Positions 47,645 through 58,911 of a stretch of 64,000 nt of DNA are shown here, one piece after another. The first letter of the stretch is position 1; each line of letters opens with the position of its first letter. The stretch lies in assembly GCA_020641055.1 (NCBI GenBank), contig CP067345.1:202001-266000 (forward strand). Direction: 5' to 3'. The notes beneath the pieces were generated by a model, which was given only the letters and a program-made list of their open reading frames with translations, had not been told where the DNA came from and made no database searches. The position numbers and the translations under genes were made by a program. This stretch comes from Clostridioides sp. ES-S-0010-02. GTDB taxonomy: Bacteria; Bacillota; Clostridia; Peptostreptococcales; Peptostreptococcaceae.

Positions 47645-48280
47645 ATGTATAAGTGTGGGAAATGTAATCTTAGAGGCTGCTCAGATGGAGATATGGATAA
47701 GCTAATGAAGATATGCCCAACTAGGGAAGTTGAGTTACAAGAAAAAGCAAAAAAACTTTATGAAGAGGAAGAAAATAGAAAAATAGCTTATAATGCTGGA
47801 TTAATTGAAACAGAGGGATACTGTCAATATACTAGGTTAAAAGAGATTATAGAGTTTGCTAAAAAATGTGACTATAAAAAAATTGGTATAGCATTTTGTA
47901 TTGGTTTAAAAAGAGAAATGCAAACAGTACAAAAGGTATTTGAACATCATGGATTTGAAGTGTTTTCTGTTATATGTAAAAATGGAGCGATTCCTAAGAC
48001 TACAGTTGGATTGAAGCCATCACAAACAATATCAAAATGTAAAGATGAAATAATGTGTAATCCAATAGGGCAAGCTTTATTTTTAAATGAGGCTAAAGTT
48101 GACCTTAATATAATTCTTGGATTATGTGTTGGTCATGATACATTAGCCATGAAATATATGGAAGCTCCTATAACAACTCTAATTGTCAAAGATAGAGTAA
48201 CTGGGCATAATCCAGCTGCTGCTATATATAATGCAGAGTCTTATTTTGAAAAAAAATTATTTGATAAAGATGAAGAATAA
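47645..48280 (+). CDS. DUF1847 metal-binding protein
   Basis: 211 residues. The cysteine-rich N-terminus (MYKCGKCNLRGCSDGD..MKICPT) and later cysteines (AFCIGLKREMQ, VICKNGAIPK, CKDEIMCNPIGQA, GLCVGHDTL) are the signature of DUF1847, a predicted metal- or FeS-binding family in anaerobes. It follows the nitroreductase-like gene directly, suggesting a redox partnership. Function is not known for any member that I can name. The promoter of the pyrF operon begins 13 bp downstream. Confidence 0.85.
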   Translation: MYKCGKCNLRGCSDGDMDKLMKICPTREVELQEKAKKLYEEEENRKIAYNAGLIETEGYCQYTRLKEIIEFAKKCDYKKIGIAFCIGLKREMQTVQKVFEHHGFEVFSVICKNGAIPKTTVGLKPSQTISKCKDEIMCNPIGQALFLNEAKVDLNIILGLCVGHDTLAMKYMEAPITTLIVKDRVTGHNPAAAIYNAESYFEKKLFDKDEE

Positions 48281-48292
48281 TTCAAAGACTTA

Positions 48293-48321
48293 TTGACATA
48301 AAAAGCAATTAGTGGTTTAAT
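48293..48321 (+). promoter_or_regulatory. Promoter of the pyrF-carAB operon
   Basis: TTGACA (48293-48298), 17-base spacer, TTTAAT (48316-48321); start predicted near 48328, upstream of both attenuators. Confidence 0.6.
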
Positions 48322-48400
48322 TATAAAAAAGATGAAACTTTAAAATATCCTTAAGATACATAAAGTTATATAAATAAAGAAAAAATATTATGACTAAATT

Positions 48401-48479
48401 CCTTAAACTAGTCCAGAGAGACTAAAGGGTTATAGATAGTGTTAATATATAACCTCTAGTAAATCACCTAGAGGTTTTT
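48401..48479 (+). promoter_or_regulatory. PyrR-dependent attenuator 1
   Basis: The PyrR-binding loop AGTCCAGAGAGACT sits in a CCTT/AAGG-closed hairpin (48401-48429). GGGTTATA can pair with TATAACCT as antiterminator, which excludes the terminator AACCTCTAG/CTAGAGGTT (48451-48476, then TTTTT). UMP-loaded PyrR would favour termination. Confidence 0.85.
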
Positions 48480-48515
48480 GATGAGTATAAAATAAAAAAT
48501 TTAAATATAATAAAG

Positions 48516-48624
48516 TCTTTTAAACTAGTCCAGAGAGACTGGGAAAGATATCTCATAGCTAATTAATATCAAAGTTATGTATAGATAAAATCCTTGTGCC
48601 TCTTTTGGTGTAAGGATTTTTTTA
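48516..48624 (+). promoter_or_regulatory. PyrR-dependent attenuator 2
   Basis: A second identical AGTCCAGAGAGACT loop (48527-48540) in a TCTTT/AAAGA-closed hairpin is followed by the terminator AAAATCCTT/AAGGATTTT (48587-48620, extended by G-T pairs inside) and a T-run. Two tandem units give steeper control. Confidence 0.85.
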
Positions 48625-48660
48625 TGAGGATTTAGGCTTTATTAAAAAGGAGATATAAAA

Positions 48661-49377
48661 ATGATAAATGGTAAAGAGAAGCTAATAGTTGCAATTGATA
48701 CTGACGAATTTGATAAAGCTAAAGAACTAATAGACAAATTGGAAGATAGTGTAGATATATTTAAAGTAGGACTAGAACAATATGTGGCTACAAAAGGAAA
48801 GACAATAGACTATTTAAAAGAAAAAGGTAAAAAAATATTTCTAGACCTTAAATTCCATGATATTCCAAATACTATGAAAAGTGCAGTAAGAGCTGCAGTA
48901 AGAGATAATGTTTGGTTAATGACAATTCATGTATCAGATATGGAAGGGATGAGACAATGTGCACTAGTTGCTAAAGAAGAAGCAGAGAGATTAAATATAG
49001 AAAAACCTTTGGTGGTTGGAGTAACAGTTTTAACTTCATTAAGCAACCAAGACTTACAAGATATAGGATGTAATATGACAACAGAAGAATTGGCTATAAA
49101 GAGAGCTAAATTAGCAAAAGAATCAGGAATAGATGGAGTTGTTTGCTCAGCTCAAGAAGTAGATAAGATAGTAGAGGCATGTGGAACTGATTTTATAACA
49201 GTTTGCCCAGGGATAAGACCTAAGTCAGCAGAAGTTGGAGACCAAAAAAGAGTTGTTACTCCATCAGATGCAATAAAAAGAGGAGCTCATTATTTAGTTG
49301 TTGGAAGACCTATAACAAAAGCAGAAAGTCCAAGAGAATCAGCTATTAATATTGTAAAAGAAATAGAAAATGCTTAG
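48661..49377 (+). CDS. pyrF: Orotidine-5'-phosphate decarboxylase
   Basis: 238 residues, normal length of the bacterial TIM-barrel enzyme. The catalytic tetrad is in IFLDLKFHDIPNTMKSAV (DxKxxD), and the phosphate site is near VCPGIRP and LVVGRPI. It converts OMP to UMP, the last step of de novo pyrimidine synthesis. AAAAGGAGAT precedes the ATG. It is the first gene after two PyrR attenuators, with carA 25 bp downstream; the other pyrimidine genes are outside the window. Confidence 0.96.
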   Translation: MINGKEKLIVAIDTDEFDKAKELIDKLEDSVDIFKVGLEQYVATKGKTIDYLKEKGKKIFLDLKFHDIPNTMKSAVRAAVRDNVWLMTIHVSDMEGMRQCALVAKEEAERLNIEKPLVVGVTVLTSLSNQDLQDIGCNMTTEELAIKRAKLAKESGIDGVVCSAQEVDKIVEACGTDFITVCPGIRPKSAEVGDQKRVVTPSDAIKRGAHYLVVGRPITKAESPRESAINIVKEIENA

Positions 49378-49402
49378 ATAAAACATTTGGGAGGTAGCTT
49401 AT

Positions 49403-50446
49403 ATGAAGGGGAAATTAATTTTAGAAGATGGAACAGTATTTGAAGGAAAAGCATTTGGATATTTAAAGGAAGCTGTTGGTGAAGTTGTGTTTAATACTTC
49501 AATGGCAGGATATGGTGAACTACTGACAGATGCAACTTATTATGGACAAATAGTGACAATGACATATCCACTTATAGGGAACTATGGAATAAATTTAGAA
49601 GATGTTGAATCAAATAAAGTACAAGTAAAAGGACTTATAGTAAGAGAAAAAAGTGACAACCCAAATAATTTTAGATGTGAAATGGATATAGACACATATC
49701 TAAAGCAAAACAAAGTAATTGGACTTGAAGGAATAGATACAAGAGCATTGACTAAGATTATTAGAAATAATGGAACAAAAAAAGGTATTATAACTTTAGA
49801 AAATGTATCATTACAAGAAATTCAGTCTAAATTAACAGAGTGTTGTAATAAAGATTCTGTTAAAAGTGTTACAAGAAAAGAAATTGAAAATATTAAAGGG
49901 ACTGGTGTTAAAGTCGTAGTTGTAGACTTTGGTGTTAAAAATAGTATATTAGACTCACTGAAAGCTTGTAACTGTGACATAATGGTAGTACCAGCAATGA
50001 CTACTTCAGAAGAAATTTTAAATATAAACCCTGACTTGATATTATTATCTAATGGACCAGGTAATCCAGAAGATATAAATGATATAGTTGAAAATATAAA
50101 GAAATTAGTAGGCAAAAAACCACTAGCAGGAATCGGTTTAGGACATCAAATTTTGGCATTAGCATTAGGTGGAAAAACTTCAAAACTTGCATTTGGACAT
50201 AGAGGAGGAAATCATCCAGTTAAATGTTTAGAAACAGGAAAAGTATTTATAACTTCTCAAAATCACGGATACAATGTTTCAGAAATGCCAGAAGATACAG
50301 AGATAACTCATGTAAATTTAAATGACAATACTATAGAAGGAATGAGACATAAGGAATTACCAATATATAGTGTTCAGTACATTCCAGAATACACAACAAA
50401 AGAAGATTTAGATTGTATATTTAATAAATTCTTAGCATTAATATAG
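49403..50446 (+). CDS. carA: Carbamoyl-phosphate synthase small subunit, glutaminase site lost (copy 1)
   Basis: 347 residues. The N-terminal CarA domain is intact (KLILEDGTVFEGKAFGYLKEAVGEVVFNTSMAGYGELLTD). The class I glutaminase domain is damaged at the active site: the nucleophile position in GIGLGHQ is Gly245 instead of Cys, and the catalytic His position in VQYIPE is Ile327, while Glu329 remains. The copy at 53963 has Cys245 and His327. Glutamine hydrolysis by this subunit is therefore not expected; it may support ammonia-dependent synthesis or only assemble with CarB. It lies between pyrF and carB under PyrR control. GGGAGG precedes the ATG. Confidence 0.93.
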   Translation: MKGKLILEDGTVFEGKAFGYLKEAVGEVVFNTSMAGYGELLTDATYYGQIVTMTYPLIGNYGINLEDVESNKVQVKGLIVREKSDNPNNFRCEMDIDTYLKQNKVIGLEGIDTRALTKIIRNNGTKKGIITLENVSLQEIQSKLTECCNKDSVKSVTRKEIENIKGTGVKVVVVDFGVKNSILDSLKACNCDIMVVPAMTTSEEILNINPDLILLSNGPGNPEDINDIVENIKKLVGKKPLAGIGLGHQILALALGGKTSKLAFGHRGGNHPVKCLETGKVFITSQNHGYNVSEMPEDTEITHVNLNDNTIEGMRHKELPIYSVQYIPEYTTKEDLDCIFNKFLALI

Positions 50447-50498
50447 ATTTAGTATTATTTACAGATAGTAAAAACCATTTAGATAAGGAGAAAAATTT

Positions 50499-53400
50499 AT
50501 GCCTAAATTAGATAGTATAAAGAAAACTTTAGTATTAGGGTCAGGACCAATAATAATAGGTCAAGCGGCAGAATTTGACTATTCAGGAACTCAAGCATGT
50601 CAATCTTTAAAAGAAGAAGGAATTGAAGTTGTATTAATAAATAGTAATCCAGCTACAATAATGACTGATAAAGAAGTGGCAGATAAAATATATATAGAAC
50701 CATTAACAATAGAATTTATAGAAAAAATAATAGAAAAAGAAAGACCAGATAGCTTACTTGCAGGTATGGGTGGACAAACAGGATTAAACTTAGCAGTTGA
50801 GCTTTATGAAAAAGGCATACTAGATAAATATGGAGTAAAAATAATAGGTACTTCAGTAGAATCTATTAAAAAAGGTGAAGACAGAGATATATTTAGAGAT
50901 GTAATGAAAGAAATAAATCAACCTGTAATAGTTAGTGATATAGTTACAGATTTACAAGCAGGTCTTGATTATGCACTTACAATAGGGTATCCAGTAGTTG
51001 TAAGACCAGCATATACATTAGGTGGAACTGGTGGAGGTATCGCTGATACTGAGGAAGAATTAAGAGAGATACTTTCACATGGATTGCAATTAAGCCCAGT
51101 TGGACAAGTATTAATTGAAAAAAGTATAAAAGGTTGGAAAGAAATAGAATATGAAGTAATAAGAGATTCAAAAGGAAACTGTATAGTTGTATGTAACATG
51201 GAAAATATAGACCCAGTTGGAGTTCATACAGGAGATAGTATAGTTGTTGCTCCAACACAAACTCTAAGCAATAAAGAATGTGCGATGCTTAAAAAAGCAT
51301 CTTTAGATATATTAAATGCAGTAGAAGTTCAAGGTGGATGCAATGTTCAGTTTGCATTAAACCCACATAGTTTTGAATATGCAGTTATAGAGATAAATCC
51401 AAGAGTTAGTAGATCATCAGCATTAGCATCAAAAGCTACAGGATATCCAATAGCAAAAGTTTCATCAAAAATAGCTTTAGGATATACTTTGGATGAAATA
51501 GAAAATGCAGTAACTAAAAAAACTTATGCTTGTTTTGAGCCAACTATAGACTATGTAGTTGCTAAGATACCAAAATGGCCATTTGATAAATTTAAAAAGG
51601 CAAATAGAAAATTAGGAACTAAGATGATGGCAACTGGTGAAATAATGAGTATAGGAAGTAACTTTGAAGCTGCTATTCTTAAGGGAATAAGATCACTAGA
51701 AACAGGAAAATATTCATTAGTTCATGCTCCATCAGAAGAGAGAAGTATTGAAGCGTTGAAGAAAAGAGTTGTAGTACCTGATGATGAAAGATTGTTTGAT
51801 TTAGCTGAAATGATAAGAAGAGGCTATAAAGTAGAAATGATAGAACAAATCACAGGAATAGACAAATGGTTTATAAATAAATTTAAATGGATAGTTGAGC
51901 AAGAAGAAAAATTAAAAGTTATGAAGATTGAAGACTTAACTAAAGATTATCTTCTTGAGTTAAAGAAAAAAGGATTCTCTGATAAAGGTATATCTGACTT
52001 AATGAAGATAAGCCCAGAAAAATTATACGAATTAAGAAGTCTATATAACATAAAACCAGCATACAAAATGGTTGATACATGTGCAGGAGAAATAGATGCG
52101 ATATCTCCATATTATTACTCAACTTATGAGCAATATGATGAAGTAGTTGTAAGTGATAAGAAAAAAGTAATAGTGTTAGGCTCTGGACCAATAAGAATAG
52201 GTCAAGGTATAGAATTTGACTATTGTTCAGTTCACTGTGTAAAATCTTTGAGAAAGATGGATATAGAAACTATAATCATAAACAATAACCCTGAAACAGT
52301 AAGTACAGATTTTGATACATCAGATAAACTATATTTTGAACCATTAACAGAAGAAGAAGTTTTAAGTATAATTGAAAAAGAAAAACCAGAAGGTGTAATA
52401 CTACAATTTGGAGGACAAACAGCTATAAAACTAGCTAAGTTCTTACATGAGAAAAATATACCTATATTGGGAACTGATTTTGATGATATAGATGCAGCGG
52501 AAGATAGAGAAAAATTTGATGATTTATTAGAGAGATTAGATATAAATAGACCAAAAGGAAAAGGTGTATGGTCACTTAATGAAGGTATTGAAGTTGCTAA
52601 TGAATTAGGTTATCCAGTATTAGTTAGACCATCTTATGTACTTGGTGGTCAAGGTATGGAAATAACTTACAATGAAGAAAAATTATCTCAATACCTACAG
52701 GATGCATTTGATAGAGACCATAAGAATCCAGTACTTATAGACAAGTATTTAACTGGTAGAGAAATAGAAGTAGATGCCATATGTGATAAAGAAGATATAT
52801 TAATACCTGGAATAATGGAACACTTAGAAAGAGCTGGAGTTCACTCTGGAGATAGTACGACAATGTATCCAAGCCAAAATATATCTGATAAGATAAAAGA
52901 AAAGATAGTAGAATACACTAAAAAAATAGCTTTAGACCTTAATGTAATTGGTATGGTTAATATACAATTTATAGAATTCCAGAATGAATTATATATAATA
53001 GAGGTTAATCCTAGAGCCAGTAGAACAGTACCATATATAAGTAAAGTGAGTGGGGTACCAATAGTTGATTTAGCTACTAAATGTATGTTAGGAGCTAAAT
53101 TAAAGGATTTAGGATATGGTACAGGAGTTTATAAAGAGCCTAAACTAGTATCAGTAAAAGTGCCAGTATTCTCAATGTCTAAATTAGCTAAAGTTGAAGT
53201 AAGTCTTGGACCTGAAATGAAATCTACAGGAGAAGTTTTAGGTGTAGGAGAAAACCTAGAAGAAGCTCTATATAAAGGATTCTTGGCTGCAGGTAGACAT
53301 ATGTCTGACGAAAGAGGAGTAGTACTTGCTACTGTTAATAATAACGATAAAGATGAGTTTATAGCAATAGCAAAAGATATGAAAGAGTTAGGATACACTT

Positions 53401-53705
53401 TTGTTGCTACAGAAGGTACAGCTAAGAGTCTAAGAGAAAATGGAATAGAAGCTGATATAGTAAATAGAGTGGAAGAATCTAGACCAAACATACTAGATGC
53501 TATAAGAAATAAACAAGTTGATATAGTAATAAATACACCTACTAAAGGTAATGACTCAACAAGAGACGGATTTAAAATGAGAAGAACAGCTATTGAATTT
53601 TCTACTGAAATAATGACATCTTTAGATACACTAAAAGCTCTAGTAGAGGTTAAGAAAAAACACCTAAACAAAGATAAGTTAAAAGTTTACAATATAGCTG
53701 AATAG
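50499..53705 (+). CDS. carB: Carbamoyl-phosphate synthase large subunit (copy 1)
   Basis: 1068 residues, close to the usual length of about 1070. Two ATP-grasp halves are visible, each with its phosphate-binding opening ([27 protein letters not shown] at the N-terminus, [26 protein letters not shown] near 555) and [12 protein letters not shown] / [12 protein letters not shown] loops; the oligomerisation part lies between, and the allosteric MGS-like domain is C-terminal (about 935-1068). It makes carbamoyl phosphate from bicarbonate, ammonia and two ATP. TAAGGAG precedes the ATG. Long stretches are nearly identical in DNA to copy 2. Confidence 0.96.
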
Positions 53706-53754
53706 AAATTAAGTTGATTGTATAGTTTAAGAATTTAATCATTAAATTAAAAAG

Positions 53755-53806
53755 AAGAAGTTATTTTTTCTATGAGTTTTTACTTTTGAGATAACTTCTT
53801 TTTTTT
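53755..53806 (+). terminator. Terminator between the carAB copies
   Basis: AAGAAGTTAT pairs with ATAACTTCTT around a long loop and is followed by eight T. It ends the pyrF-carA-carB transcript, so copy 2 needs its own promoter (TATAAT at 53819-53824 is a candidate -10 box). Confidence 0.85.
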
Positions 53807-53962
53807 AAGAAATTTGTAGTATAATAGAAAAAGATAAAAAATAAATGTAAATAAGTATAAAACTAGAATGTAAAAGTGAAAAATAGATATAGATATTTAA
53901 AAGATTATATTTAGTTAATGTTCTTTAGTTTGCCTAAAGAGAATTATAGGAGGTACTGTAAT

Positions 53963-55012
53963 ATGAAAGCAAGGTTAATATTAGAAGATGGGACAGTTTT
54001 TATAGGAAAAGCATTTGGATATTTAGAAGAAAGTGTAGGAGAAGTAGTATTTAACACTTCGATGATAGGATATGGTGAAGTTTTAACAGACCCTTCTTAC
54101 TATGGTCAAATAGTTACTATGACTTATCCTCTTATAGGAAATTATGGTATAAATTTATCATCAGCAGAATCTGAAAAAGTGCAAGTGAAAGGATTTATAG
54201 TAAGAGAAAAAAGTGATTCTCCAAGTAATTTTAGATGTGAGATTGATATAGACCAATATTTAAAGCAAAATAAAGTGATAGGACTAGAAGGAATAGATAC
54301 AAGAGCTTTAACTAAGATACTTAGAAATAATGGGACAATGAAAGGTATAATTACATTAGAAGATAGCAAGTTAGAAGATGTTAAACATAAATTAGATAAG
54401 TTTTCAAATACAGAAGCAGTTAGAACGGTTACAAGAAAAGAAGTAGAGCATATAGAAGGAAATGGACCAAAAGTAGCTGTTATGGATTTTGGAGTTAAAA
54501 GAAATATCTTAAGATCATTTATAGCTCGTGGATGTGATATAACAATATTCCCAGCTACAACATCTCCAGAAGATGTATTAAGTATAAACCCTGATTTAAT
54601 ATTTTTATCAAATGGGCCTGGAGACCCAGAGGATTTAGAAGATGTTATAGAAAATATAAAAGCTCTAATTGGTAAAAAGCCTATAGTTGGAATATGCTTA
54701 GGGCATCAGCTTTTAGCCCTAGCTCTTGGAGGAAAAACTGCTAAACTTAAATTTGGACATAGAGGTGGAAATCATCCAGTTAAAGATTTAGAAGAGGGAA
54801 AAGTATTTATAACTTCTCAAAATCATGGATATTATGTTTCAGAAGTTCCTGAACAAATGAAAGTGACACATATAAATTTAAATGATAATACTGTTGAGGG
54901 AATGAGACATGAGAAGCTAGATGTATACAGTGTTCAATACCACCCTGAAGCTTGTCCAGGGCCAAAAGATAATGACTATATTTTCGATAAGTTTTTAGAG
55001 TTCGTAAAATAA
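53963..55012 (+). CDS. carA: Carbamoyl-phosphate synthase small subunit, intact (copy 2)
   Basis: 349 residues from ATG 53963 with AGGAGG (53948-53953) upstream; the open codons before it lack a ribosome binding site. Both domains are normal. The glutaminase triad is present: Cys245 in GICLGHQLLALA, His327 and Glu329 in VQYHPEACPGP, plus the oxyanion-type SNGPGDP. It releases ammonia from glutamine and channels it to CarB. Compared with copy 1, protein similarity is clear but many positions differ, in contrast to the almost equal CarB pair. No PyrR-type loop is seen upstream, so regulation differs. Confidence 0.95.
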   Translation: MKARLILEDGTVFIGKAFGYLEESVGEVVFNTSMIGYGEVLTDPSYYGQIVTMTYPLIGNYGINLSSAESEKVQVKGFIVREKSDSPSNFRCEIDIDQYLKQNKVIGLEGIDTRALTKILRNNGTMKGIITLEDSKLEDVKHKLDKFSNTEAVRTVTRKEVEHIEGNGPKVAVMDFGVKRNILRSFIARGCDITIFPATTSPEDVLSINPDLIFLSNGPGDPEDLEDVIENIKALIGKKPIVGICLGHQLLALALGGKTAKLKFGHRGGNHPVKDLEEGKVFITSQNHGYYVSEVPEQMKVTHINLNDNTVEGMRHEKLDVYSVQYHPEACPGPKDNDYIFDKFLEFVK

Positions 55013-55196
55013 ATAATATCAATATATATAATATATAACTAAAAATAAGACTAACTTAAATCAAAAAAATATTGGTTTAATTAATATAGATATAATAAAT
55101 AATCTCAAATTTAATATGGAATAAAATAATTAAAATTGATTGTATAGATTATGAAGATAGAAACTGTGAAAATTGTTTAGATAAGGAGAAAGAGTT

Positions 55197-58100
55197 ATGC
55201 CTAAATTAGATAGTATAAAGAAAACTTTAGTATTAGGGTCAGGGCCAATAATAATAGGTCAAGCAGCAGAGTTTGACTACTCAGGAACACAGGCCTGCCA
55301 AGCATTAAAAGAAGAGGGAATAGAAGTTGTATTAGTAAATAGTAATCCAGCGACGATAATGACTGATAAAGAAATTGCAGATAAAATATATATAGAACCA
55401 TTAACAATAGAATTTATAGAAAAAATAATAGAAAAAGAAAGACCAGATAGCTTACTTGCAGGTATGGGTGGTCAAACAGGACTAAACTTGGCTGTAGAAT
55501 TACATGATGCTGGTATACTAGATAAATATAATGTAAAAGTTATAGGTACATCTATAGAGTCTATAAAAAAGGGTGAGGATAGAGATTTATTTAGAGAAGT
55601 AATGAAAGAAATAAATCAACCTGTAATAGTTAGTGATATAGTTACAAACCTAGAAGCAGGTCTTGAATTTGCAAGTAAAATAGGATATCCAGTGGTTGTA
55701 AGACCAGCATATACACTAGGTGGAACTGGCGGAGGTATAGCTGATACTGAGGAAGAATTAAGAGAGGTACTTTCACATGGATTGCAATTAAGTCCAGTAG
55801 GTCAAGTTCTTCTTGAAAAGAGTATAAAAGGTTGGAAAGAAATAGAATATGAAGTAATGAGAGATGGGAATGGAAACTGTATAACTGTATGTAACATGGA
55901 AAATGTAGACCCAGTTGGAGTTCATACAGGAGATAGTATAGTTGTTGCTCCAAGTCAAACTTTAAGTGATGAAGAATACCAACTACTTAGAAAAGCATCA
56001 ATAGATATAATAAATGCAATAGAAGTTCAAGGTGGATGTAATGTTCAAATAGCTTTAAATCCACATAGTTTAGAATATGCAATAATAGAAATAAATCCAA
56101 GAGTTAGTAGATCATCAGCGCTAGCATCAAAAGCTACAGGATATCCAATAGCAAAAGTGGCAGCTAAGATAGCCTTAGGATATACTTTGGATGAAATAGA
56201 AAATGCAGTAACTAAAAAAACTTATGCTTGTTTTGAGCCAACTTTAGATTATGTAGTAGTAAAAATACCAAAATGGCCATTTGATAAATTTAAAAAGGCA
56301 AATAGAAAATTAGGAACTAAGATGATGGCAACTGGTGAAATAATGAGTATAGGAAGCAACTTTGAAGCTGCTATTCTTAAGGGAATAAGATCACTAGAAA
56401 CAGGAAAATATTCATTAGTTCATGCTCCATCAGAAGGTAGAACGTTAGAAGAGCTAAAGAAAAGAGTTGTAGTACCTGATGATGAAAGATTGTTTGATTT
56501 AGCTGAAATGATAAGAAGAGGCTATAAAGTAGAAATGATAGAAGAAATCACTGGTGTTGATAAGTGGTTTATAAATAAATTTAAATGGATAGTTGAGCAA
56601 GAAGAAAAATTAAAAGGTCTTAAAATAGAAGATTTAGATAAGGAATACTTACATGAATTAAAGAAAAAAGGATTCTCTGATAAAGGTATATCTGACTTAA
56701 TGAAGATAAGCCCAGAAAAATTATACGAATTAAGAAGTCTATATAATATACAACCAGTTTATAAAATGGTTGATACATGTGGAGGAGAATTTGAAGCTCT
56801 ATCTCCATATTACTACTCAACTTATGAGCAATATGATGAAGTAGTTGTAAGTGATAAGAGAAAAGTTGTAGTATTAGGTTCTGGACCAATAAGAATAGGT
56901 CAAGGTATAGAATTTGACTATTGTTCAGTTCACTGTGTAAAATCTTTAAGAAAAATGGGTATAGAAACTATAATTGTAAACAATAACCCTGAAACAGTAA
57001 GTACAGATTTTGATACATCAGATAAACTATATTTTGAACCATTAACAGAAGAAGAAGTTTTAAACATAATTGAAAAAGAAAAACCAGAAGGTGTAATACT
57101 ACAATTTGGAGGACAAACAGCTATAAAACTAGCTAAGTTCTTACATGAGAAAAAAATACCTATATTGGGAACTGATTTTGATGATATAGATGCAGCAGAA
57201 GATAGAGAAAAATTTGACGACTTATTAGAGAGATTAGATATAAATAGACCAAAAGGAAAAGGTGTGTGGACAACTAATGAAGGTATTGAAGTTGCTAATG
57301 AATTAGGTTATCCAGTATTAGTTAGACCATCTTATGTACTTGGTGGTCAAGGTATGGAAATAACTTATAACGAGGAAAAATTAACTCAGTATTTAGATGA
57401 TGCTTTTGCCAGAGACCATAAGAATCCAGTACTTATAGATAAATATCTAACTGGTAGAGAAATAGAAGTAGATGCTATATGTGATAAAGAAGATATATTA
57501 ATACCTGGAATAATGGAACATTTAGAAAGAGCTGGAGTTCACTCTGGAGATAGTACGACAATGTATCCAAGCCAAAATATATCTGATAAGATAAAAGAAA
57601 AGATAGTAGAATACACTAAAAAAATAGCTTTAGACCTTAATGTACTTGGTATGGTTAATATACAATTTATAGAATTCCAGAATGAATTATATATAATAGA
57701 GGTTAATCCTAGAGCCAGTAGAACAGTACCATATATAAGTAAAGTGAGTGGGGTACCAATAGTTGACTTAGCTACTAAATGTATGTTAGGAGCTAAATTA
57801 AAGGATTTAGGATATGGTACAGGAGTTTATAAAGAGCCTAAACTAGTATCAGTAAAAGTGCCAGTATTCTCAATGTCTAAATTAGCTAAAGTTGAAGTAA
57901 GTCTTGGACCTGAAATGAAATCTACAGGAGAAGTTTTAGGTGTAGGAGAAAACCTAGAAGAAGCTCTATATAAAGGATTCTTGGCTGCAGGTAGACATAT
58001 GTCTGACGAAAGAGGAGTAGTACTTGCTACTGTTAATAATAACGATAAAGATGAGTTTATAGAAATAGCAAAAGATATGAAAGAGTTAGGATATACTTTT

Positions 58101-58403
58101 GTTGCTACAGAAGGTACAGCTAAGAGTCTAAGAGAGAATGGAATAGAAGCTGATATAGTAAATAGAGTTGAAGAGCCTAGACCAAACATACTAGATGCTA
58201 TAAGAAATAAACAAGTTGATATAGTAATAAATACACCTACTAAAGGTAATGACTCAACAAGAGACGGATTTAAAATGAGAAGAACAGCTATTGAATTTTC
58301 TACTGAAATAATGACATCTTTAGATACATTAAAAGCTTTAGTAGAAGTTAAGAAAAAGCATATAAATAAAGATAAATTAAAAGTTTATAATATAGCAGAA
58401 TAA
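55197..58403 (+). CDS. carB: Carbamoyl-phosphate synthase large subunit (copy 2)
   Basis: 1068 residues, same length as copy 1, from ATG 55197 with TAAGGAG. All CarB domains are present as in copy 1 (two ATP-grasp halves, C-terminal allosteric domain). The DNA around the start (the first 40 codons), in the middle (about 56218-56450) and across about 57540-58320 is almost base-for-base the same as copy 1, including third codon positions, while other parts carry many synonymous and some amino-acid differences. It follows the intact carA by 184 bp. Confidence 0.96.
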
Positions 58404-58422
58404 AAAACAAACTGATATTTAG

Positions 58423-58468
58423 ATTAATTAAAGGCGTTAGTTCCTAGGAGCTTTCGCCTTTAATTAAT
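58423..58468. terminator. Bidirectional terminator-like hairpin
   Basis: ATTAATTAAAGGCG (58423-58436) is exactly complementary to 58455-58468. It lies between convergent carB copy 2 and the minus-strand gene at 58534. T-richness comes from the arms themselves. Confidence 0.7.
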
Positions 58469-58533
58469 ACTCTATAATTATTTTCTTATGTGAACTAAAA
58501 TAAATATCAATCTTGATACTATCAGTTTTTTCT

Positions 58534-58911
58534 TTAATCATTAGATAGAGGATAAGAGTGGTAGTCATGAATTTCTTCATGTATAAGATTTTCATATTTA
58601 TCATAATAGTATTTAATTGTAACAACTATTTTATCTCCTTTAGATACATTTCTATAGAGTTTTTTATTTTTAATAGAGTAGACCTCATCTTTATATATGG
58701 CATTAACTATAAAAATTTCTGACTCATAATCAAATGTTCCCATTACTGGATTATAGTGTTTTGAATCTTCTTTATAGCAGAAGCTTTCAACAGTCATTAT
58801 ATAAGTTCCAAATGAAATCCATTTGGTACCTTTAAATAAATTTACTTTCTCATTAATATATGAAACGCCTGGCGTATCAAGAATTTTTTCTAATAATATT
58901 TTTTTCTCCAT
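58534..58911 (-). CDS. Hypothetical protein
   Basis: 125 residues from the ATG whose first base is 58911 (AAAGGAG nine bases upstream on the minus strand; the upstream TTG at 58917 is less likely). The sequence alternates beta-type stretches (KVNLFKGTKWISFGTYIMTVESF, VNAIYKDEVYSIKNKKLYRNVSKGDKIVVTIKYYYDKYENL) and looks like a small soluble beta-rich protein. No family is recognised, and no membrane segment or signal peptide is seen. Confidence 0.6.
   Translation of the reverse strand: MEKKILLEKILDTPGVSYINEKVNLFKGTKWISFGTYIMTVESFCYKEDSKHYNPVMGTFDYESEIFIVNAIYKDEVYSIKNKKLYRNVSKGDKIVVTIKYYYDKYENLIHEEIHDYHSYPLSND

Follow-up and report, generated by a model that had tools for sequence, protein, structure and literature searches.

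The first of two carAB pairs in the genome of Clostridioides sp. ES-S-0010-02 is likely to encode an ammonia-dependent carbamoyl phosphate synthetase (CPS) for pyrimidine synthesis, judging from sequence comparisons with its relatives. Bacterial CarAB enzymes are annotated as glutamine-hydrolysing, and a CPS that works on ammonia alone and carries an inactive glutaminase domain has, to our knowledge, been described from vertebrates. A search of open papers found no report of a bacterial CarA lacking the catalytic cysteine, subscription papers lying outside its scope, so that prior notice is possible; in their accessible parts, the Clostridioides difficile papers found held no carA data, one of them listing pyrBKDE transcripts. 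If ammonia use is true, many bacteria of the phylum would have the wrong nitrogen source for pyrimidines, and in some cases for arginine, in their annotation and metabolic models, and the repeated events described below would form a natural series for studying substrate switching in a tunnelled enzyme. The two-copy arrangement of C. difficile would moreover allow ammonia-fed and glutamine-fed pyrimidine synthesis to be compared directly within a single cell.

Within the window, that is the whole 64,000-nucleotide stretch of DNA analysed, the genes concerned all lie on the forward strand. The gene for orotidine-5'-phosphate decarboxylase, pyrF (48661-49377; NF001273, 271.5 bits, cut-off 193), is followed by carA1 (49403-50446), encoding a CPS small subunit with a dead glutaminase site, and, after a gap of 52 bases, by carB1 (50499-53705), encoding a large subunit that keeps the catalytic and gate residues and in which Ala262 and Lys265 replace Gln and Arg. 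The second pair consists of carA2 (53963-55012, for which the listed reading frame opens earlier, at 53918), whose Cys245, His327 and Glu329 are intact by alignment, and carB2 (55197-58403), which keeps Gln262 and Arg265. The gap between these two (55013-55196) is, at 184 bases, long compared with that between carA1 and carB1, and has no convincing Rfam match. CarA1 and CarA2 are 71% identical, and CarB1 and CarB2 93%. The preliminary description placed carA1 under PyrR control, and a PyrR-binding RNA (attenuator) was indeed found at 48513-48625 on the forward strand, 5' of pyrF-carA1-carB1 (RF00515, 60.1 bits, gathering score 54), possibly the second of a tandem, with a sub-threshold match on the same strand at 48397-48482 (RF00515, 32.8 bits, E 0.015, gathering score 54). 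Around carA2 (53600-55250) neither a PyrR RNA nor an Rfam leader was detected, and a scan for promoters and terminators over 48200-58600 gave nothing exceeding shuffled expectation. Elsewhere in the same genome lie pyrBKDE and argCJBDF clusters, named from reading frames and family search.

The carA1 reading frame is intact, as first described, and translates to 347 amino acids with no internal stop. Aligned to E. coli CarA, codon 245 (GGT, 50135-50137, forward strand) gives Gly at the site of the nucleophile Cys269 and codon 327 (ATT, 50381-50383, forward strand) gives Ile at the site of His353, whereas the third triad residue is retained (Glu329 for E. coli Glu355); CarA1 thus fails two of three triad tests, those for Cys and His, and passes that for Glu. 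Both replacements were already reported in the preliminary description, as was a second CarA 4.6 kb downstream with Cys245 and His327, which starts 4.56 kb on and has kept both residues. Despite Gly245 and Ile327, CarA1 scores 423.1 bits against the NCBI 'glutamine-hydrolyzing' model TIGR01368, above the curated cut-off of 307.35. Beyond these earlier observations, Asn221 replaces E. coli Asp244, Ala44-Thr45 replace Pro46-Ser47, of which Ser47 is presumably a glutamine-contact residue, and the loop Pro358-Gly359-Pro360-His361 is reduced to T-(gap)-K-E. Also retained are the E. coli tunnel residue Gly293, as Gly269, and Gln249, Asn287 and Gly289, which we take to be part of the glutamine-binding shell. 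The AlphaFold model of CarA1 has a mean pLDDT of 90.8, and in it strand 241-244 and helix 246-254 flank residue 245, which thus sits at the place of the nucleophile elbow; the closest solved folds are E. coli CarA (including 1c30, C269S, and 1m6v, G359F) and then human CPS1. With Glu329 and the fold kept, one could suppose that CarA1 hydrolyses glutamine or another amide donor by means of a different nucleophile. This is extremely unlikely in our view, as Cys and His are both gone and as the two columns with Cys in more than a quarter of Cys-less CarA rows hold it in fractions of 0.77 and 0.27, against 0.77 and 0.64 in Cys-bearing rows; a replacement nucleophile was rejected, since no column holds Cys preferentially in the Cys-less rows.

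Alignment of orthologues at positions 245 and 327 had been set as a test beforehand, and Gly245 with Ile327 was found in the CarA1 of 8/8 genomes of the genus, on which ground a sequencing error or strain-specific decay was rejected. Cys and His are kept in the CarA2 of all seven genus genomes where it was found; in G009, a draft of 390 contigs, no CarA2 was found. A family search of 71 genomes gave 82 CarA rows, 71 of which keep Cys and His, the 11 that have lost Cys being the CarA1 of the eight genus genomes, one CarA each of G031 and G033 (Gly, Ile) and that of G038 (Ser, Asp). The last of these genomes has one CarA and one full CarB, both in a pyrF-carA-carB locus headed by a PyrR RNA. In a wider scan, among the best 80 of 332 loci, Gly occurs in four C. 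difficile CarA1, and Cys and His are present in the remaining 76.

The second check proposed, dN/dS (Nei-Gojobori, mean dN over mean dS across pairs), gave 0.088 for carA1 over seven genomes, with 0.063 for residues 1-150 and 0.107 for residues 169-347, the dead glutaminase half; comparison values were 0.040 for carA2 and 0.026 for pyrF (seven genomes each) and 0.016 for carB1 and 0.033 for carB2 (four genomes each). As the ratio is low throughout, carA1 and even its dead domain are maintained, and pseudogene status was rejected. Protein change in carA1 is about twofold faster than in carA2, as is its dN/dS, and the glutaminase half changes faster than the N-terminal half, which is what might be expected if CarA1 were in recent decay towards a pseudogene. 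We find this hardly credible, however, given a ratio far below 1 even in the glutaminase half, an open frame with the same two replacements in eight of eight genomes, and a Cys-less lineage that groups with the Cys-less CarA of another genus, that of G031 and G033 (support 99, trait columns removed).

For a census of the CarA nucleophile, 149 genomes were drawn evenly from this single phylum, our own included, and 130 CarA rows from 107 genomes were scored among the matches listed (to about 80 bits), excluding the window's genome and six fragment or half rows in G159 (two), G101, G078, G100 and G097. Cys and His are both present in 106 rows and Gly stands at the nucleophile in 19, while four have Cys but a His place that is unreadable or non-standard and one (L206) falls short of the site. 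The replacement is thus Gly in 19/19 Cys-less rows of the phylum, and since many other single changes are possible from TGY, it looks selected. Glycine suits a strained nucleophile elbow. The place of His in these 19 rows reads H in five, D in three, N, R, I and Q in two each and L in one, with two gaps, one of which (G215) reads Phe in the full-length frame; uniform Gly beside a variable His place fits selection for an elbow glycine over random decay. Against ammonia use, several Cys-less CarA are very divergent and 5/19 keep His. As a separate observation, CarA at L298 and L353 (G082) and at L216 (G183) retain Cys while the catalytic His is replaced by Tyr or Leu, and are possible intermediate or parallel losses; the CarB row L353, partner to a CarA with Tyr for His, reads Lys262/Lys265.

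A Gly-CarA is present in 18 of the 107 CarA-bearing genomes, and 14 of the 107, ten of them at least 90% complete, have a Gly-CarA with no Cys-bearing copy among the matches listed. These genomes bear on the choice that the preliminary description left between free ammonia and the borrowing of CarA2 by CarB1. In the latter case CarB1 would use the CarA2 glutaminase in mixed complexes and CarA1 would be a dispensable or regulatory passenger, and cross-assembly is indeed plausible from the similarity of CarB1 and CarB2, which are homogenised in their C-terminal thirds, with CarA2 intact. Borrowing nevertheless seems improbable to us. It predicts free decay of CarA1, which was not seen, carA1 being under purifying selection in the seven genomes compared; CarB1 departs from CarB2 at positions 262 and 265; and the option is inapplicable to genomes without a Cys-bearing CarA. 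Purifying selection, the 14 Gly-only genomes and correlated changes in CarB together better support the use of free ammonia, in parallel with CPS I, as the probable role of CarA1-CarB1.

The correlated changes lie largely at CarA Pro360 and CarB Gln262 and Arg265, which we take to be wall of the ammonia tunnel. In CarB partners of Cys-less CarA the residues checked as invariant, presumably the catalytic ones, and the gate residues Cys232, Ala251 and Ala314 are kept in 18/18 rows. Gln262 is departed from in 11/21 such partners (and retained in 10/21) against 3/97 partners of Cys-bearing CarA, and Arg265 in 6/21 against 2/97, counts in which close relatives make up many of the 97 rows used for comparison, CarB1 and the G031 and G033 partners are probably one event, and four rows are not included (a duplicate, L353 and two copies from second genomes). 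In CarA, where full-length frames were used for the Cys-less rows and other rows ending early were dropped (4/143 at position 360), Pro360 is departed from in 19/23 Cys-less rows against 4/139 others, second after the nucleophile itself, and His353 in 18/23 against 2/141. The positions tested in both subunits were chosen after inspection of the data, CarB 262 being picked post hoc as the most departed of 346 conserved columns. With kinship taken into account, about 6 of 11 independent pairs go the same way at CarB 262 (median p 0.03, range 0.016-0.22) and about 5.6 of 7 at CarA Pro360 (median p 0.03, range 0.03-0.22; 0.06 with cut-off rows), while for CarA Ser47 the median p is 0.125; the statistics for correlated change are thus modest once relatedness is counted.

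Ser47 bears on another possibility, that CarA1 is a regulatory pseudo-subunit which, for example, restrains CPS when glutamine is bound unhydrolysed. Part of the glutamine-binding shell is kept (Gln249, Asn287 and Gly289) and selection persists over the dead domain, both of which would suit such a role. It is a very improbable one, however, as Ser47 is changed in CarA1 and in 16/23 Cys-less rows against 0/143 others, and as the Gly-only genomes still have pyr operons, which require carbamoyl phosphate.

We propose that CarA1 would be a folded but glutaminase-dead protein, remaining bound to CarB1 in a structural and perhaps also an allosteric role, and that CarA2-CarB2 would remain the glutamine-dependent enzyme. 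Free ammonia would reach the carboxyphosphate site of CarB1, probably via a lateral opening between CarA and CarB in the altered part of the tunnel wall, that is at the 332-335 loop of CarA1 and residues 262 and 265 of CarB1. Fermentation of amino acids releases ammonia, which may favour an ammonia-fed CPS, and we infer this rationale together with the ammonia activity and the side entrance. E. coli-type CPS is a poor user of free ammonia, so that ammonia must be plentiful or the Km of CarB1 lower. In E. coli CPS with Cys269 replaced, ammonia use is kept and glutamine use lost, and Kim and Raushel in 2004 reportedly perforated the E. coli tunnel by mutating CarA Pro360 and His361 and CarB Arg265, with ammonia use surviving and glutamine use lost. 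The natural changes described here hit sites of E. coli laboratory mutations (CarA 269 and 359-360, CarB 265), of which CarA 360 and CarB 265 are presumably those of the 2004 study. According to the accessible part of one paper, E. coli CPS with a blocked or perforated tunnel has normal activity on external ammonia, and human CPS1 retains the glutaminase domain with the catalytic Cys replaced by Ser294, and carries Gln318 at the E. coli tunnel position Gly293 (PMC4655335).

As in vertebrate CPS I, the glutaminase domain of CarA1 is present with its catalytic Cys replaced, and ammonia would be the nitrogen source. Unlike vertebrate CPS I, which belongs to the urea cycle, CarA1-CarB1 is encoded in a pyrimidine locus, its two parts are on separate chains, Gly rather than Ser has replaced Cys, His is also lost, and the tunnel glycine, Gly269, has not been replaced by Gln as in human CPS1. 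By descent CarA1 is a CarA and does not belong to vertebrate CPS I. E. coli CarA is nearer to it in sequence than CPS1 is, and its model also matches CPS1 structures. A likeness to vertebrate CPS I in function that evolved separately and repeatedly would be the best explanation. With E. coli CarAB the pair shares fold, subunits and the catalytic and gate residues of CarB, but the glutaminase site of CarA1 is naturally dead and conserved in that state. A PyrR leader and a pyr gene beside carAB are also found with Bacillus-type PyrAA-PyrAB, the pyrimidine-specific CPS under PyrR; those known to us keep the Cys, whereas of the two copies here it is the pyrimidine one that lacks it. Finally, the pair would resemble the small CPS of Methanobrevibacter smithii and the carbamate-kinase-like CPS of Pyrococcus, described in the accessible part of one paper as architectures without a CarA subunit (PMC6022934), in making carbamoyl phosphate without an attached active glutaminase.

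Repeated origin of the Cys-less state is shown by the trees. Cys-less changes of state numbered 13 (at least 6 forced) in one CarA tree, 10 (at least 7 forced) in another that left out ten long or fragmentary rows, 8 (at least 7 forced) in a third of 49 chosen rows with trait columns removed, and 12 (at least 11 forced) in a CarB tree of 65 chosen rows, where forced changes are those required by well-supported branches and the counts are of state changes, allowing regain of the triad, which is unlikely, and including long branches. A single Cys-less CarA clade was rejected (log-likelihood 517.55 lower, p-AU 0.000334), in a test that takes the group to have been defined in advance, ours having been named after an earlier tree; the spread of a single old Cys-less paralogue by transfer was rejected with it. 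As a minor point, the CarB of L082, whose record is named Lutibacter sp. B2 (Bacteroidota by name), falls among clostridia, and the record is perhaps mislabelled.

The whole-length CarB tree pairs CarB1 with CarB2, unlike the CarA tree, in which copy 1 joins G031 and G033. In a tree of CarB residues 1-400, CarB1 groups with G031 and G033 at moderate support (86) and CarB2 with Metaclostridioides; residues 1-250 alone left the placement of CarB1 unresolved, and the last third places CarB1 with CarB2. Over bases 2601-2800, carB1 and carB2 of the same genome are up to 100% identical in DNA in the window and in G004, and 96% in G010, against 92-93% for orthologues. We read these patterns as gene conversion between carB1 and carB2 in the last third, with no sign of it over the first 400 codons, stopping short of the ammonia-receiving half, and it is this conversion that would explain the conflict between the CarA and CarB trees over copy 1. 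For the phylum as a whole we lean slightly towards the view that ammonia-dependent CPS evolved many times, nearly always by Cys-to-Gly replacement, accompanied by His loss and by a reshaping of the tunnel wall (CarA 358-361, CarB 262/265) in which a former leak site becomes an entrance for bulk ammonia, the pyrimidine copy of Clostridioides included, where conversion would have made the distal part of CarB uniform and selection would have preserved the difference in the half that receives ammonia.

The neighbourhoods of Cys-less CarA were read at 20 places in 19 genomes. CarB adjoins 18 of the 20, the exceptions being G200 and G134, which have CarB matches on other contigs, the Cys-less CarA of G134 lying at the end of its contig. 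Clear pyr genes are near 12 of the 20 (G031, G033, G038, G096, G085, G090, G196, G134, G179, G215, G131 and one copy in G076) and arg genes near four (G113, G105, G110 and the other copy in G076); weaker neighbours are PyrK-like matches in G102 and G144 and an ArgD-like match in G162, and G200 has neither pyr nor arg genes. A PyrR RNA reached the gathering score in 6/10 loci searched (L113, L115, L242, L243, L244 and L248), lying 5' of pyrF-carA in the first five.

In a second genus, that of G031 and G033, a Cys-less CarA also accompanies a distant Cys-bearing CarA (L142, L143, L165, L166), and the Cys-bearing copy groups with other families in the tree. These two genomes hold one transcarbamoylase-family gene each, an aspartate transcarbamoylase (ATCase; 76-77% to the PyrB of our own genome), and no ornithine transcarbamoylase was found in either, so both CPS copies should feed pyrimidines, a content that fits a choice between nitrogen sources more readily than a division of labour between pathways. 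A general division of the copies between arginine and pyrimidines was rejected on this ground and because Gly-CarA also occurs among arg genes, from which it follows that the switch is not confined to pyrimidine enzymes. Four such Gly-CarA (L257, L258, L259 and L260) lie amid arginine genes in an argCJB-carAB-argF type of arrangement, and in G076 the pyr-operon and arg-operon CarA (L226, L227) both have Gly for Cys.
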